64,000 nucleotides of DNA, taken from NCBI GenBank assembly GCA_947488345.1, contig CANKZQ010000001.1, forward strand, positions 186,001 through 250,000, given 5' to 3'. This document shows, in pieces, positions 30,107 to 36,595 of this stretch; position 1 is the first letter of the stretch, and the number at the start of each line of letters is the position of its first letter. The position numbers and the translations under genes are program-made. The notes below the pieces were generated by a model. The model did not search any database. It was not told the origin of the DNA and saw only the letters and a list, made by a program, of their open reading frames with translations. This DNA is from an uncultured Flavobacteriaceae bacterium. Lineage in GTDB: Bacteria; Bacteroidota; Bacteroidia; Flavobacteriales; Flavobacteriaceae.

Positions 30107-32101
30107 TTAAAAACGCTTCCGCTCTATCTGCTCCCCTTTCGCATTATAAGCTCGCCATACACCTACTTGTTTGTCTTTTCTATAGCGCCCTTTAATCTTT
30201 AAGGTACCATCTGGGTAATACTCATTATATCGGCCGTGTTTTAAGCCATCCTTCAAACCAACTTCCACATGTTTCGCGCCGCTATTATAGCTCTTCTTAT
30301 ATACGTCAGCATTAAGGTCATCAGGATATACCTGCGCGACATCGAATACATCTTTAACGTCAAGTACATTGGGCATACTACCAGCCGTAGTTGGTAATAA
30401 TGGTCCAAACAACCGTAAGTCTTTAAATTGTTCTTTGCTTTTCACAATTGCCGCACTTTGATAATCGACAACAAACTTACTCTTAAACAAATCATTTGAA
30501 GGGGTTAACTGAAATCCGATTTGCGGAAAACAAATAATAAAATCTTTATTCTTTAAAATTTGTTTCTTTGTTGTTTTATCAGCTATAGACAACATATTCT
30601 CATATAGTACAGGCATATTGATATACGCAAACAAACTAGATGCTGATTTAAAATTACCATTAAAATGTTGAAAATCTTCTGAGTTCTGCAGTGTTTCTTT
30701 AGCGATATACGTGTCTATAATACTTTTTAAGGTATTGGGTTTGTCACTAAATACTACAAAGTCATCTATAATAGTATAATAAGGTTTATCGAAACTCTTG
30801 AAGAGATTTCCAAAAAAGAGTTTAAAAAAACCTTTGATGGCCATAAAATTGATAGGGTAATCTTTATAGTTTATCGACTTAAATTTGACAGGTGTTCGCT
30901 TTTTTAATTGCTTTTGTATAAAGGCAAGATTCGTTTTTGCTTTTTCAATATCAGCAGCCTTCAAGATCATTGCCATATCGTTTTTGCCTCTAGTTATCGA
31001 CGACTGTATTTGCAAAACTGCAATTTCATCACCAATCCAACTCACAAAATTTTCTTTGACATCAATTTTCAACAATTTTTCTATTGATTGTTGTTGGGCT
31101 TCATAAGCCTTGAAAACTTCAGGGTTCTTTTGCTGAATTTGTAAAAAATTAGTGTAGAGTTCGGTAAAGCTATCGAAGCCAAAACTCATATAAAGTGCTG
31201 TACGTTTGGGAGCTATTGTTGGAATACTGCGTTTCGACGTGCCAGATTGCTGCAATGCCTTTAAATAGCCCAAATTACCCTCACTAATACTTGTGTATCC
31301 TTTGGCAATCATCGTGTTATTAGAAGCCAAATCAAAGCTGAATCCAGAGAATAAAAAATTCTCACTCAACGTTTGTATCAATGCCGTGGGTTCGTTTGTA
31401 AAATAATGTGCGTAGTCATCTAAATAATCGTGCTGCAAATACAAACGGAACATATCGTCATACCCTGTTTTCTTTTTAACCTCGATAAAATCAAGATTTC
31501 TACCAATAAAAGGCTCTCCTACCTGATCGATAGATGCTTCAATCAAGGTATGTACATAAGAAGCGATTAATTGATTTTTAACGAAAGAGAGGTATAAAGT
31601 TTCACGGCTCTCTTTATCGTACAATTCAATAATTTCATTACCATGATACTCTCTTCTGCTTAAGCTATAGGTATCATCCAATAAGGTGTTTAAATAACTC
31701 CGCAGTAGCTTTAATTTGGCAATTCTCTTTAAATCGATTACATAAAAAATACCATATTCTTTAGGCTTGTACATATGCACAGAAAAGAATAAAGATCGTG
31801 TTCCGAAGAGTTGAAATAATTTCTTCTTATTATGAAAAATAGTATCCATTTTATGAATACTCTCGGTCAATTCAAAAAAGTAGTCGTTTTTTTGCAGGTG
31901 ATTCCATGCTTCGCTTTCGCGGATTTTATCCCAGTTATCAACCGGCTTTTGGGTTTCTACTACGAAAACGGCATCCTTAGGGATTAAATAAATAGATTGT
32001 AGATTGGCGCTTGGCGCTAAATAAAAGAAATACACCCCATAAGCTATACACGCAATAAAAACAGCGAATAATGAAAGGAATATTTTCTTTTTTACGGTCA
32101 A
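30107..32101 (-). CDS. DUF3352-like membrane-anchored protein with MORN-like tail
   Basis: A 664-residue protein with one N-terminal membrane helix (about 7-28). The long extracytoplasmic region has short motifs seen in DUF3352-type proteins (LIPKDAVFVVETQKP, GDEIAVLQ, YFFEL), but the family call is tentative. The last about 45 residues form a MORN/YwqK-type repeat pair (KHGRYNEYYPDGTLKIKG, GVWRAYNAKGEQI). It follows the symporter gene by 51 bases on the same strand, so it may be the last gene of that operon. Function unknown. Confidence 0.6.
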   Translation of the reverse strand: MTVKKKIFLSLFAVFIACIAYGVYFFYLAPSANLQSIYLIPKDAVFVVETQKPVDNWDKIRESEAWNHLQKNDYFFELTESIHKMDTIFHNKKKLFQLFGTRSLFFSVHMYKPKEYGIFYVIDLKRIAKLKLLRSYLNTLLDDTYSLSRREYHGNEIIELYDKESRETLYLSFVKNQLIASYVHTLIEASIDQVGEPFIGRNLDFIEVKKKTGYDDMFRLYLQHDYLDDYAHYFTNEPTALIQTLSENFLFSGFSFDLASNNTMIAKGYTSISEGNLGYLKALQQSGTSKRSIPTIAPKRTALYMSFGFDSFTELYTNFLQIQQKNPEVFKAYEAQQQSIEKLLKIDVKENFVSWIGDEIAVLQIQSSITRGKNDMAMILKAADIEKAKTNLAFIQKQLKKRTPVKFKSINYKDYPINFMAIKGFFKLFFGNLFKSFDKPYYTIIDDFVVFSDKPNTLKSIIDTYIAKETLQNSEDFQHFNGNFKSASSLFAYINMPVLYENMLSIADKTTKKQILKNKDFIICFPQIGFQLTPSNDLFKSKFVVDYQSAAIVKSKEQFKDLRLFGPLLPTTAGSMPNVLDVKDVFDVAQVYPDDLNADVYKKSYNSGAKHVEVGLKDGLKHGRYNEYYPDGTLKIKGRYRKDKQVGVWRAYNAKGEQIERKRF

Positions 32102-32152: not shown

Positions 32153-33961
32153 TTAAGCTACAGAATCCGTTGGTTTTTGAAAAAATTGCTGCATCATCAT
32201 GGCTAACAACATCACTAATAAACAACCAAATAAGTTCAACCATAAATAGGGCATCCAGTCATAGTACCAGCCTACTATTACAATTACTTGGGTGATTATC
32301 GCTGCTCGAAATACTGCATTTCCTTTTACAAATTTAAAGAAGAAAGCCAATAAAAAGATACCTAAGACATTACCATAAAAAATGGAACCTATTATATTAA
32401 CCAATTGAATTAGGTTTTCAGCAAGATTCGCGAAACAGGCGATAATTATGGCTATAATTCCCCACATTAAAGTAAAGCCTTTCGTCGCTTTTACAAGATG
32501 CTTTTCGCCTTTATCTTCCTTTAAATTCCTTGCGTACAGATCTATCGAAGTAATCGTTGCCAGCGCATTGATTTCAGACGCAGTTGAAGACATAGCTGCC
32601 GACAATATAACGGCTAACAACAATCCAATCAATCCGTTAGGCAAGTAATTCAAGACGAATGTAATAAACATGTAATCTCTATCATTCGTTTCTGTATCTT
32701 TTGCCGCATCTTTATACAAGCTAAGCAAGGCCTCCTCTTTCTCTACGAACTCTTGACTATCCTCATCGACTCCTTTCAATTCAGCATACAACCGATCATA
32801 TTTGTTCGCATAAACACTGTCAATAGCCCTCTTAATAAGATATTTAGATTTTAATTTATGATCCCTTTCTGCACTATCCAATTGTATCAATCGTTTTCTG
32901 GTCGCGGTATTTTCCTCTTTTGACAACGCAATACTCAATTCTTTTTTCTCTAAAAAAAGTATATTTTGTTCCTTTTGAAGATTTTTATACTCTTGCGAAT
33001 ACTCAGAAGCTAATACTTTTTTAGTCGAGGAATCAATAAAATTTAAAGGCGCTTCATTGAACTGATAAAAAACGAAAACCATAATCCCTACTAAGAGAAT
33101 AAAAAACTGCATGGGCACTTTTAACAGGCCATTAAAAATCAATCCCATTTGCATTTCCTTCATCGACTTGCCCGATAAATACCGTTGTACTTGACTTTGA
33201 TCTGTTCCAAAATAAGAAAGCATTAAAAAAGTTCCTCCAATCAAACCAGTCCAAACCGTATATCTATTTTCTAAATCAAATGAAAAGTCTAACACTTCCA
33301 TACGCCCACTGGCTCCTGCAATATCTAAGGCTTTTGTAAACGAAACATCTTCCGGAATTAAATTGAGAATAATAAATAGTGCTGCAAGCATTCCTGCAAA
33401 AATGACAAACATTTGTTGTTTCTGTGTAATTGTAACTGCCTTCGTTCCACCAGAAACCGTATATACAATCACCAAAATTCCTATAATTATATTCAAATAA
33501 ACAATAGGCCATCCTAGAACAACTGATAAAATAATTGCTGGAGCAAATATGGTAATTCCAGCAGCTAAGCCACGTTGAATCAAAAATAAAATAGCGGTAA
33601 GACTTCTCGTTTTTAAGTCAAAACGATTCTCTAAAAATTCATACGCCGTATAGACTTTAAGCTTATGGTACAACGGGATAAACACCATACATATGATGAC
33701 CATTGCAATGGGTAAACCGAAGTAAAATTGTACAAACCCCATTCCATCAGAATATGCTTGCCCAGTAGTTGATAAAAACGTAATCGCACTTGCTTGTGTC
33801 GCCATGACAGATAAGCCAATAGTCCACCATTTAGATTGATTACCTCCCTTAATAAAGTCTTGAGCGTTCTTTTGTCCTCTGGTTTTCCACGAACCATATA
33901 AAACAATAAATAGTAATGTTCCTATTAGAACGACCCAGTCAATTGGATTTAATTGTTGCAT
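32153..33961 (-). CDS. Sodium:solute symporter (SSS family)
   Basis: A 602-residue transporter of the LeuT-fold SSS family. The first helix region and the unwound TM1 segment (WWTIGLSVMATQASAITFLSTTG), TM5 region and SAAMSSTASEINALATITSID (helix 8, sodium-site type) are typical. A hydrophilic, largely coiled insert of about 125 residues (302-428) interrupts the helix bundle and is unusual in size. Gene order after a PIG-L deacetylase suggests uptake of a sugar or amino-sugar product, which is inference. The start overlaps the stop of the 35-residue miniprotein gene (TAATG). Confidence 0.9.
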   Translation of the reverse strand: MQQLNPIDWVVLIGTLLFIVLYGSWKTRGQKNAQDFIKGGNQSKWWTIGLSVMATQASAITFLSTTGQAYSDGMGFVQFYFGLPIAMVIICMVFIPLYHKLKVYTAYEFLENRFDLKTRSLTAILFLIQRGLAAGITIFAPAIILSVVLGWPIVYLNIIIGILVIVYTVSGGTKAVTITQKQQMFVIFAGMLAALFIILNLIPEDVSFTKALDIAGASGRMEVLDFSFDLENRYTVWTGLIGGTFLMLSYFGTDQSQVQRYLSGKSMKEMQMGLIFNGLLKVPMQFFILLVGIMVFVFYQFNEAPLNFIDSSTKKVLASEYSQEYKNLQKEQNILFLEKKELSIALSKEENTATRKRLIQLDSAERDHKLKSKYLIKRAIDSVYANKYDRLYAELKGVDEDSQEFVEKEEALLSLYKDAAKDTETNDRDYMFITFVLNYLPNGLIGLLLAVILSAAMSSTASEINALATITSIDLYARNLKEDKGEKHLVKATKGFTLMWGIIAIIIACFANLAENLIQLVNIIGSIFYGNVLGIFLLAFFFKFVKGNAVFRAAIITQVIVIVGWYYDWMPYLWLNLFGCLLVMLLAMMMQQFFQKPTDSVA

Positions 33962-34068
33962 TATGAAGCGAATATTTGCATTAAAATGTAAAAAAACACT
34001 ATGTATATCACATTCATCACAAGTACCAGTGTATATGATTTATCCCATGTATATTTTTTTTCATTCAT
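33961..34068 (-). CDS. 35-residue single-span membrane miniprotein coupled to the symporter
   Basis: ATG at 34068-34066, TAA at 33963-33961: 35 residues, a charged start MNEKKYTWDKSY, then one hydrophobic helix (VLVMNVIYIVFFYILMQIF). The stop overlaps the symporter start codon as TAATG, and the start is 4 bases after the PIG-L stop, so all three genes are translationally linked. Size, topology and coupling suggest an accessory subunit of the symporter, comparable in idea to the small partners of other SSS transporters, but no family is recognised. Chance open frame is unlikely given the junctions. Confidence 0.7.
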   Translation of the reverse strand: MNEKKYTWDKSYTLVLVMNVIYIVFFYILMQIFAS

Positions 34069-34072
34069 AGTG

Positions 34073-36595
34073 TTAGTTCTTTGGTGACATAGCATCATCA
34101 TTATCTCCAACCGATAACAAATTTGCAAACAATTTATAAGCCCCAGGCACGCCCGCTGGTAACTCTCTAAAAAAACTTAATCCGGTGTAAATAAAATTTC
34201 CCTTGCCATATTTAGCAATCAGTAAACTGCCTTTTTTAACGCTTTCGCCTTTATCGTTCATTGCTAATAACGGGGTAAATTCTTGAGACCATTCACTCGG
34301 AAAATATAAGCCACGTTCTTGCACCCAACCTTCAAAGTCTTCCGCTTTTATTTTATTCGGAAAATTCATGACTTCATGGTTTGGAGCCAAGAAAGTAACT
34401 TTGGCGTTTTCGTCAGTCACACGATCTCGAGATAATTTCAGAGCATATGGAGCAACCTGTGTCACTTTTTGTCGTCTGCTTGTGTTGTATTGTACGACTA
34501 ATGTTCCTCCATTCTCAACATATTTGTGCAAAGCAGCTTGGTAAAATTTTGCGGCGTCATCTATATTATAAGTTCGTAAGCCTAAAACAATGGCATCGTA
34601 ATTTTGTAGTTCAGCTGAAGCAATTTCATCACTTTTCAACTCTGTAACTTTATAACCAATTTGTCGCAAACTTTCTGGTATATTATCTCCAGCTCCTTGA
34701 ATATATCCAATGTGTTGTCCTTTCTTTTTAATTGCTAAACGCACTACCTTCACTTCACTTGGCAACAATACCGTTTGAGAAGGAATATGATCATAATTTA
34801 TCTCAACTATTTCGTGAGCATAGGACTGATTATTAATAACAAAATTTGGCTTTATCATATTTACGACAGTGTCATCTTTTGTTGAATTCAATAAAAAAGT
34901 CAGCGTTTTCTCTTCTCCTTTTTTTGAAAGACTCACATCTTTTATTCGTGGTCGAGCGCTCCACCCAGATGGCAAATCAAAATTTATATAACCTTGTATA
35001 TCATCTTTATATGCCTTAATTGTTACCCGAACCTCAATGGCCTCTTTTGGCTTTGAAATAACAATTTTTGCATCCGTTTTCACCGAGACTGTTGGAATAA
35101 TTTCAAATGGTTTGTACAATTCTCCTTTATCAGGTTTCGAATACCTGTAAACTACGGGTTTCATGATTGTGACAGGAGTACCCTCTATTTCCAAATTGAA
35201 ATCTACGGTCACACCCCTTGGTGTTTCTGGAATACCAATTAACTCCTTATTGGTCACAGTATACATTCCTAAGGTTCCTTTATTTTGAAGCCAATATGGA
35301 GTGGTATATTGAAGGTTTCTTGATGCTAAATACAATGAATCTTTCATTGTTTTCTTGACATTATTTTCTAATACCATATTTTTAGAAGCAGCAGTTTTTT
35401 GGGTAGAAATTTTTACCGATTTTAAAACAATGTTAGCGGCACTTCTGTTCAATGCTTCTAAAGAGAGCATCATTTTTTCATTTCCAGTAATTTTCGAGTC
35501 ACTTGCAGAGACTTCTAGATACAATCCAGCACAAGATTCAATAATGGCCAATAATTCTTTTGATTTTATCGCTTTCCAATGGGCATCTTCTAGCTTTAAC
35601 ACCAATTGATAGGCTTCGACTAGTTTTGGCAAATGTTTAGAAGGGTCTTTAAAATTAAAATTCGCTTCAATATTTTTCAATATTTTTCCAATAGCCGTTC
35701 CTCCTTTTACACGTTTCCATGAGGTATCAATTCCATCAAAAATATTTGACTTGTTTTTAGGCAACGTCCCTTTTAACAATTCAACATATTCCTTTTCAGT
35801 ACCACGTTGTGTTAAGCGCCCAAATCCCTGACATAAATGTTGACTGCTGGCGATAGCAGCAACTTCATTGTTAGACAATCCTTTTAACGGATAATAAACT
35901 CCAGTATCAAAATTTAATAAATTACTTTTATCTGCTTTTTCAAACGCCTCTCTGCCACCATAAAAAAACCAATGTGTATTAAAGAATAATCGCGCAGGTT
36001 GCCATAGTTGAGTAGATCCTTTATGTGTTTTATAATTTATATCGTTTGCAAGATCAAACGCCTCCATGCTTAACATAGCCGAAGATGTATGATGCCCGTG
36101 TGTTCTCCCTGGTGTTCGATGATCAAAACGATTGATGATGACATCTGGCTTAAAGTTTCTAATTCGAGATACAACATCCTTTAAAACCTCATCTTTATTC
36201 CAAATAACCAAGGTTTCATCTGGATGCTTTGAATAGCCAAAATCATTGGCTCTTGTAAAAAATTGTTCGCCTCCATCGACACGTCGTGCACCCAATAATT
36301 CTTGCGTTCTTATAATACCGAGAGATTCTCGTATTTCAGGTCCGATCAAATTTTGACCGCCATCCCCTCTTGTCATTGAAAGATAGGCCGTTCTGGCTTT
36401 CACATGATTAGAGAAGTAAGAAATCAAGCGTGTATTTTCATCATCAGGATGCGCAGCCAGATATAAAACCGAACCTAAAAAGTTCAATTTTTGAACAGAC
36501 TCGTATATTTCAGAAGCATTTTGTTTACTAGGTTGTTGAGCTGATGATAGAGAGAAGAAAAAAACAAAAATCAGAAAATAAAAATTGGTTTTCAT
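34073..36595 (-). CDS. PIG-L (LmbE) family deacetylase with C-terminal GATase-like region
   Basis: About 840 residues. The ATG at 36595 is chosen because it puts a signal peptide first (MKTNFYFLIFVFFFSLSSAQ); an in-frame ATG at 36634 exists. The PIG-L domain (about 35-270) has the zinc motif AAHPDDE and a downstream TPGRTHGHHTSS with candidate ligand His. A middle beta-rich region of about 300 residues follows, and residues about 640-830 resemble a ThuA/GATase-like flavodoxin fold (NYDAIVLGLRTYN, GGTLVVQYN). It is likely a periplasmic de-N-acetylase of a GlcNAc-type sugar. It heads the symporter operon. Confidence 0.82.
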   Translation of the reverse strand: MKTNFYFLIFVFFFSLSSAQQPSKQNASEIYESVQKLNFLGSVLYLAAHPDDENTRLISYFSNHVKARTAYLSMTRGDGGQNLIGPEIRESLGIIRTQELLGARRVDGGEQFFTRANDFGYSKHPDETLVIWNKDEVLKDVVSRIRNFKPDVIINRFDHRTPGRTHGHHTSSAMLSMEAFDLANDINYKTHKGSTQLWQPARLFFNTHWFFYGGREAFEKADKSNLLNFDTGVYYPLKGLSNNEVAAIASSQHLCQGFGRLTQRGTEKEYVELLKGTLPKNKSNIFDGIDTSWKRVKGGTAIGKILKNIEANFNFKDPSKHLPKLVEAYQLVLKLEDAHWKAIKSKELLAIIESCAGLYLEVSASDSKITGNEKMMLSLEALNRSAANIVLKSVKISTQKTAASKNMVLENNVKKTMKDSLYLASRNLQYTTPYWLQNKGTLGMYTVTNKELIGIPETPRGVTVDFNLEIEGTPVTIMKPVVYRYSKPDKGELYKPFEIIPTVSVKTDAKIVISKPKEAIEVRVTIKAYKDDIQGYINFDLPSGWSARPRIKDVSLSKKGEEKTLTFLLNSTKDDTVVNMIKPNFVINNQSYAHEIVEINYDHIPSQTVLLPSEVKVVRLAIKKKGQHIGYIQGAGDNIPESLRQIGYKVTELKSDEIASAELQNYDAIVLGLRTYNIDDAAKFYQAALHKYVENGGTLVVQYNTSRRQKVTQVAPYALKLSRDRVTDENAKVTFLAPNHEVMNFPNKIKAEDFEGWVQERGLYFPSEWSQEFTPLLAMNDKGESVKKGSLLIAKYGKGNFIYTGLSFFRELPAGVPGAYKLFANLLSVGDNDDAMSPKN

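Follow-up and report, generated by a model that had tools for sequence, protein, structure and literature searches.

A one-helix miniprotein encoded before an SSS family symporter is conserved across the Bacteroidota and is probably an accessory subunit

Small partners of transporters and the locus analyzed

The small membrane proteins that adjoin SSS genes include DUF485 (YjcH-type) and other two-helix SSS partners. In the TIGR03647/DUF4212 family (PF13937), two hydrophobic helices are contained within ~77–84 residues, and the gene is placed immediately before an SSS gene. A partner with a single membrane helix is represented by human MAP17 (PDZK1IP1), the auxiliary subunit of the SSS/SLC5 transporter SGLT2, which is encoded by a separate, longer eukaryotic gene. 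According to the available excerpts of PMC10803289, MAP17 docks on TM13 of SGLT2, beyond the TM12–TM13 loop, and is part of the fixed scaffold of SGLT2, supporting its stability and surface expression. The available excerpts of a review of transporter regulation (PMC10710835) assign no small protein to any SSS transporter, and six related terms are absent from a review of prokaryotic SSS proteins (PMC7918813). Partial texts of the open-licence literature on SSS accessory subunits, DUF485, PIG-L with SSS and one-helix partners likewise yielded no description. Small SSS partners are, in short, already known; a bacterial one-helix SSS partner was not found in these partial open-licence texts.

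The window, a stretch of 64,000 nucleotides from an uncultured Flavobacteriaceae bacterium (contig CANKZQ010000001.1), carries a miniprotein gene between genes for a PIG-L-domain protein and an SSS family symporter (Table 1). The encoded sequence, MNEKKYTWDKSYTLVLVMNVIYIVFFYILMQIFAS (35 aa), comprises a single hydrophobic segment. On the minus strand its ATG occupies 34068–34066 and its TAA stop 33963–33961. The PIG-L stop at 34075–34073 is separated from this ATG by a 4-base gap (34072–34069), and the symporter ATG starts at 33961, the one base that it has in common with the miniprotein stop. A sequence-only reading of the window had proposed a one-helix, 35-residue frame with this gap and a TAATG overlap, giving no strand; its coordinates were confirmed and belong to the minus strand, and the plus-strand reading of 33961–34068 contains stops. 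The mechanical open reading frame around the miniprotein begins with a TTG at 34128 and spans 55 aa. Relatives such as locus L011 have a stop codon immediately 5' of the conserved ATG, which supports both the ATG start and the 35-residue length.

Table 1. Features at the miniprotein junction, in window coordinates
Feature	Coordinates	Strand	Basis
PIG-L-domain protein, 853 aa	34073..36634	minus	Pfam PIG-L E 1.2e-14; usual upstream neighbour
Miniprotein gene (one helix, 35 residues)	33961..34068	minus	Frame, homologues, dN/dS, charge bias, one-face conservation
TAATG, overlap of miniprotein stop and symporter start by one base	33959..33963	minus	Sequence
SSS family symporter, 602 aa	32153..33961	minus	Pfam SSF E 1.4e-37, TIGR00813, PDB relatives, fold of a relative

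The symporter scores above the family cut-offs of both PF00474 (130 bits, cut-off 22.8) and TIGR00813 (232.4, cut-off 184), and its nearest solved structures by sequence are SMCT1, SiaT, NIS, SMVT, vSGLT and SGLT1/2. The PIG-L protein displays a hydrophobic N-terminus and an AHPDDE motif, and has no PDB relatives at E up to 0.001. Downstream of the symporter, at 30107–32101 on the minus strand, lies a gene for a 664-aa DUF3352 protein, one stretch of which is MORN-like, with a weak score.

Conservation of the miniprotein and selection on its sequence

The symporter was found in 15 of 17 genomes of the genus, the window's own included, and a miniprotein homologue of 34–35 residues occupies the same junction in all 14 other genus-level loci. 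A profile built from these genus-level homologues matched 242 of 299 family genomes, and the symporter was detected in 264 of the 299. Matches to the profile were obtained in 241 of these 264 symporter-bearing genomes; a weak match in a further genome, G201, occurs without a symporter. The 23 symporter-positive, profile-negative genomes, several of which are smaller than 2 Mb, revealed a divergent miniprotein at the junction in 20 cases, one by eye and 19 with permissive settings of the profile search (E values between 2e-12 and 0.08 in a small search space). Direct inspection of the junction found no trace of a miniprotein in 3 of the 264 genomes, two of them from one genus, and the miniprotein is kept in at most 261 of the 264. 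Several of the family genomes below 2 Mb (L367–L389) encode a miniprotein that has lost the cytoplasmic tryptophan and places its aromatic residues differently, with a YW within the helix (NxxYWxxFYxxM, for instance). In a genome contig scan, the miniprotein was located directly before the symporter in 80 of the best 80 named loci, which include Winogradskyella, Tenacibaculum, Algibacter, Polaribacter and Maribacter. In Aureibaculum marinum (L340), the miniprotein and the initial residues of the symporter are identical to those of L014, from a genome in the same genus as the window; most likely, then, the window derives from Aureibaculum or a closely related genus.

At the class level, 102 of 125 symporter loci contain the miniprotein (101 by profile and L226 by eye) and 3 loci are truncated. 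It was not found in 20 untruncated loci, 8 of which form one clade. Given these 20 class-level loci and the 3 family genomes above, the symporter can apparently dispense with the miniprotein in some lineages. A sample of the phylum returned miniprotein matches in 86 of 247 genomes, 32 of them outside the class. Twenty of the 32 out-of-class loci were fetched, and in 17 the miniprotein directly precedes an intact SSS gene; the other three comprise a locus with a collapsed SSS gene (L258), a locus without an SSS gene (L273) and a chance match inside another protein (L274), which was rejected as a relative. A further fetched locus, L234, shows a good miniprotein–symporter pair. Weak matches at L096, L097, L101 and L102, without a symporter nearby, were rejected as well. 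In L258 (~2085–2400), the PIG-L gene and the miniprotein are intact, and the SSS gene is represented by its first ~25 residues plus C-terminal remnants in another frame. L273 carries, on its minus strand, a miniprotein frame of the f94 type (1963–2110 of the reverse complement) that is followed by no SSS gene. Among viral contigs, 7 stretches fit a search pattern and none encodes a miniprotein relative; the symporter had no match among plasmid records up to E 1e-40.

Codon differences between miniprotein genes fall at codon positions 1, 2 and 3 in the numbers 317, 130 and 637 (1084 in total). Taken together, 56 disjoint pairs give a dN of 0.118 and a dS of 0.954, corresponding to a dN/dS of ~0.12; the pairs were drawn from profile matches, which biases the value towards conserved copies, although it is low enough to leave little doubt. 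The miniprotein is under purifying selection as a protein. Across the sequences compared it is conserved phylum-wide, and the gene is present far beyond chance expectation; we regard it as almost certainly a real protein. The earlier suggestion of a real gene is thus borne out by the homologues in 14 of 14 genus loci and 80 of the 80 best named loci, as well as by the dN/dS. It had proposed to search the junction of relatives and to examine codon-level conservation, and had named, as the outcome that would speak against it, the loss or disruption of the frame in close relatives with the flanking genes retained. The search returned homologues under purifying selection, and such breakage is not what was observed: the frame was recovered by profile in 241 of 264 genomes and in divergent form in 20 of the remaining 23, leaving 3 without it.

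The spacing between the miniprotein and symporter genes is tight. With start codons picked by rule, 95 of 267 distinct junctions overlap, 158 are spaced by 0–15 nt and 14 lie further apart. Stops and starts that overlap or nearly touch would allow translational coupling, and the two proteins may consequently be synthesized in roughly matched amounts. The spacing and the overlaps would also suit a leader frame that couples or regulates translation of the symporter and whose peptide is itself inert. We consider such a leader very improbable: the dN/dS of ~0.12, the helical-period stripe of conserved residues and the charge bias (see below) argue for a functional protein, and even where >30 nt separate the gene from the symporter start (9 of 267 junctions), the protein sequence is still conserved. 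The two genes share one frame in 84 loci, with nothing but stop codons and a few intervening residues. Inspection by eye of the 26 in-frame upstream extensions that reach at least 30 aa in 339 symporter loci (duplicates included) revealed no natural fusion of miniprotein and symporter. In L050 (~1600–1970), ~370 nt with a short frame (MVSLESYILRSD...) separate the miniprotein from the symporter, and in L111 (1483–3945) the symporter frame extends to 821 residues with a C-terminal extension of ~250 residues.

The miniprotein tracks the symporter clade

The neighbours of the miniprotein were compared on a tree of 150 symporter rows, which was computed with FastTree from the first 230 symporter residues, with a few labels set by hand and L226 scored as present. 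Both the miniprotein and PIG-L accompany the symporter in 91 rows, the miniprotein only in 37, PIG-L only in 4, and neither in 18. State changes on the tree number 10 for the miniprotein and 24 for PIG-L. The alternative that the miniprotein acts for PIG-L or for PIG-L export, with the symporter adjacent merely through operon structure, draws on the presence of PIG-L upstream in 91 of the 128 miniprotein-bearing rows. It is strongly disfavoured, since PIG-L is absent beside the other 37 miniprotein-bearing rows against 4 rows of the reverse kind, and changes more often on the tree. Furthermore, no PIG-L gene occurs in the 2 kb upstream of any of the 8 f94-type loci, which belong to other classes and have the miniprotein although their symporters are only ~37 per cent identical. 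PIG-L is also missing upstream in 6 of the best 80 named loci, all Tenacibaculum, with the pair kept. The upstream genes vary widely in the Tenacibaculum loci and in 18 class-level loci. From the tree counts and the PIG-L-free loci, it follows that the miniprotein goes with the symporter. Throughout the phylum it tracks this symporter clade whatever gene lies upstream, and the pairing does not require PIG-L as a neighbour.

Because the miniprotein stays beside the symporter while the other neighbours change, it is probably a partner subunit. That it serves the symporter in some way we hold to be quite likely; that it is specifically a one-helix accessory subunit of the downstream SSS symporter, within one SSS clade, is the reading we favour with somewhat less assurance. 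Two loci count against a subunit, as the miniprotein is seen once with no SSS gene after it (L273) and once beside the collapsed SSS gene (L258). So do the 20 class-level loci and 3 family genomes with a symporter but no miniprotein found, the absence of a recognized fusion in the 339 symporter loci, the loss of covariation under a phylogeny-aware test and the moderate model confidence for the miniprotein helix (see below). The sequence-only reading had already put forward a possible accessory subunit of the symporter, of a type other than the known two-helix small subunits. The first part is probably right, the gene neighbourhood strongly supporting the symporter over PIG-L as the candidate partner, and the second is supported by the absence of a significant family match and by a genuine TIGR03647 subunit in the same genome (see below). 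The phylum-wide occurrence of the miniprotein and the dispensability of PIG-L go beyond that reading.

The form of the symporter varies within the genus. The 602-residue form is restricted to the window and one other genome (G016), and the symporters of the other 13 genus loci are shorter and match at ~67–72 per cent, whereas those of other genera such as Wocania and Psychroserpens match at 82 per cent. It is possible that the symporter of the window was replaced from another lineage; sliding identities along the window lineage resolved no clear breakpoint between PIG-L and the symporter.

Helix topology, the symporter fold and comparison with known systems

Lysine and arginine residues flanking the hydrophobic core of 179 miniproteins are strongly biased, with 556 before and 57 after the core (613 in total). 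This bias supports a topology with the N-terminus inside, in the cytoplasm, and the C-terminus outside, on the periplasmic side. Once translated, the frame would therefore yield a single membrane helix in this orientation. The periodicity of conservation along the helix is strongest at 100 degrees, and 1 of 5000 column permutations scores as high as observed; the subsets with and without asparagine at column 15 retain the helical period, with 0 and 3 of 5000 permutations as high. In the window miniprotein, the conserved stripe runs through W8, Y12, V15, N19, Y22, F26, M30 and F33. The W and Y are kept in 251 and 260 of 263 paired miniproteins, and the N and Y of the stripe are partly L outside the family, where the sequence drifts towards a pattern like PPxFKSWxxxYxxVLxxLxxLIxLFYxFTxxFS. 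One conserved and one variable face are as expected for a helix that packs on a protein on one side and faces lipid on the other. The miniprotein may thus contact the symporter physically, with the stripe W8–F33 packed against it and the W and Y at the cytoplasmic end forming the interface.

The conserved face fits binding by a regulatory peptide equally well. Such a peptide would bind the symporter and tune its activity or turnover, like MgtS, MgtR and AcrZ, and one-helix regulators of transporters are well known (available excerpts of PMC10710835). Spacers of 41–370 nt, which separate the miniprotein from the symporter at some loci, would in addition permit separate control. On the other hand, co-encoding throughout the phylum, often with an overlap of the symporter start, is better suited to a constant stoichiometry than to switching. 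A regulatory peptide is therefore a fair rival but an unlikely one, and a structural or stabilizing subunit seems the more probable of the two roles. As a subunit, the helix would constitute a fixed scaffold that aids the folding of the symporter, its persistence in the membrane or its transport cycle, by analogy with MAP17 and SGLT2.

A fold model was computed for the L013 pair, in which the miniprotein and the symporter are in one frame with two TAA codons between them; these were read through to give 615 residues. The alignment comprised 122 rows (45 read-through, 46 symporter and 31 miniprotein). The model has a mean pLDDT of 91.5 and a pTM of 0.87. The miniprotein forms a helix over residues 10–32 with moderate confidence (block pLDDT 66, 81 and 77), and its docking would be biased by the short linker. 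The symporter displays 13 predicted transmembrane helices (TM0–TM12) and a two-helix insertion between TM7 and TM8. The latter, at ~32687–33049 on the minus strand of the window, consists of two long soluble helices in the model of the relative, and should lie in the periplasm, the compartment expected for the PIG-L protein. The symporter part superimposes on SiaT (5nva) with a Z-score of 44.7 and a root mean square deviation of 2.3 over 465 residues, and thus adopts the LeuT-like SSS fold in the model; further Z-scores are 42.8 for NIS, 42.0 for SMCT1 and ~37 for the SGLT1/2–MAP17 structures.

The model contains no helix beyond TM12 and aligns with SGLT2 only up to residue 552 of the 672-residue chain. 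Together with the in-to-out orientation of the miniprotein, this would be compatible with a detached extra helix that fills the fourteenth-helix place, TM13 of SGLT, in matching orientation. Raw mutual information across 263 paired proteins also links two miniprotein positions, N at profile column 15 and Y at column 18, to residues 481, 485, 488 and 492 of the symporter, located in TM10 of the 13-helix count, and the strongest raw signal comes from helices of the symporter's C-terminal half. The covarying residues differ, however, mainly between two large clades, and the signal did not survive a phylogeny-aware test, in which co-change was scored on a tree built from 130 full-length rows (11124 pairs, best p 7.7e-5). 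Contact by covariation was accordingly rejected as a clade-level signal; N15 with symporter residue 485 (3 shared changes, p 2.9e-4) is kept as a lead only. Moreover, the nearest folds, SiaT, NIS and SMCT1, match the whole symporter part of the model, so its 13 helices need no complement. We deem a detached helix rather improbable. No more credence is given to its extension to the whole phylum, a split transporter in which the miniprotein would be a stoichiometric helix of a 13-helix symporter, standing in for the fourteenth helix that is covalently joined in SGLT, kept separate here by selection and lost only in some lineages.

As an accessory subunit, the miniprotein can be compared with four kinds of known partner. 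The TIGR03647/DUF4212 proteins resemble it as small membrane proteins encoded immediately before an SSS gene, but possess two helices against its one helix of 35 residues. A profile–profile comparison with DUF4212 gave a probability of 0.6 and an E of 0.09 over 11 columns, with only 6 DUF4212 rows, and indicates no homology. A TIGR03647/DUF4212 small subunit with two helices and 84 aa (E 6.6e-34) is encoded in the window's own genome (contig C6, 69218–69451; L356, also L008), its stop lying 3 nt before another SSS gene. Both kinds of partner therefore coexist in one genome. DUF4212-like stretches also occur within a larger frame in two class genomes, G500 and G546 (L362 and L363), inside a 708-aa open frame and below the family cut-off, and there small subunit and transporter may be naturally fused; no such fusion of the miniprotein was seen in the 339 loci. 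DUF485 was not found in the window's genome, and the miniprotein has no DUF485 match (at E up to 1 for the window protein; among the matches listed for 61 members). For the window protein, neither Pfam nor NCBIfam gave a match at E up to 1. Searches with the 61 miniproteins returned nothing significant in Pfam (among the 25 of 33 weakly matching families listed, the others being lower-ranked matches of a single member) or in NCBIfam, where TIGR03647 is not among the 13 families matched at E up to 1. The comparisons thus support a type of small subunit that would differ from the known two-helix ones.

KdpF, CydX, AcrZ and MgtS share with the miniprotein a length of ~30–50 residues, one helix and a membrane-complex partner (available excerpts of PMC10903887 and PMC10710835), but their partners are not SSS symporters and the miniprotein has no family match. 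The closest parallel is human MAP17, whose single membrane helix accompanies an SSS/SLC5 transporter; the fold relatives of the symporter include SGLT2–MAP17. No sequence homology was found, as a search of PDB chains with a 61-row miniprotein profile, a test of sequence only, gave no match up to E 10. SGLT2 offers TM13 to MAP17, whereas the symporter here ends at TM12; the miniprotein would therefore dock elsewhere or take the place of TM13. Most likely, it works like MAP17 with SGLT2, by analogy rather than by descent that we could detect. No bacterial counterpart of MAP17 was found in print, within the partial open-licence texts available. The miniprotein also represents a conserved gene of 30–55 codons missing from the Pfam and NCBIfam libraries searched. 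If the proposed role is true, a bacterial symporter with an adjoining one-helix partner in hundreds of species would provide a simple, genetically separable test system, and could show what one helix does for the SSS/SLC5 fold that it has in common with SGLT2–MAP17.
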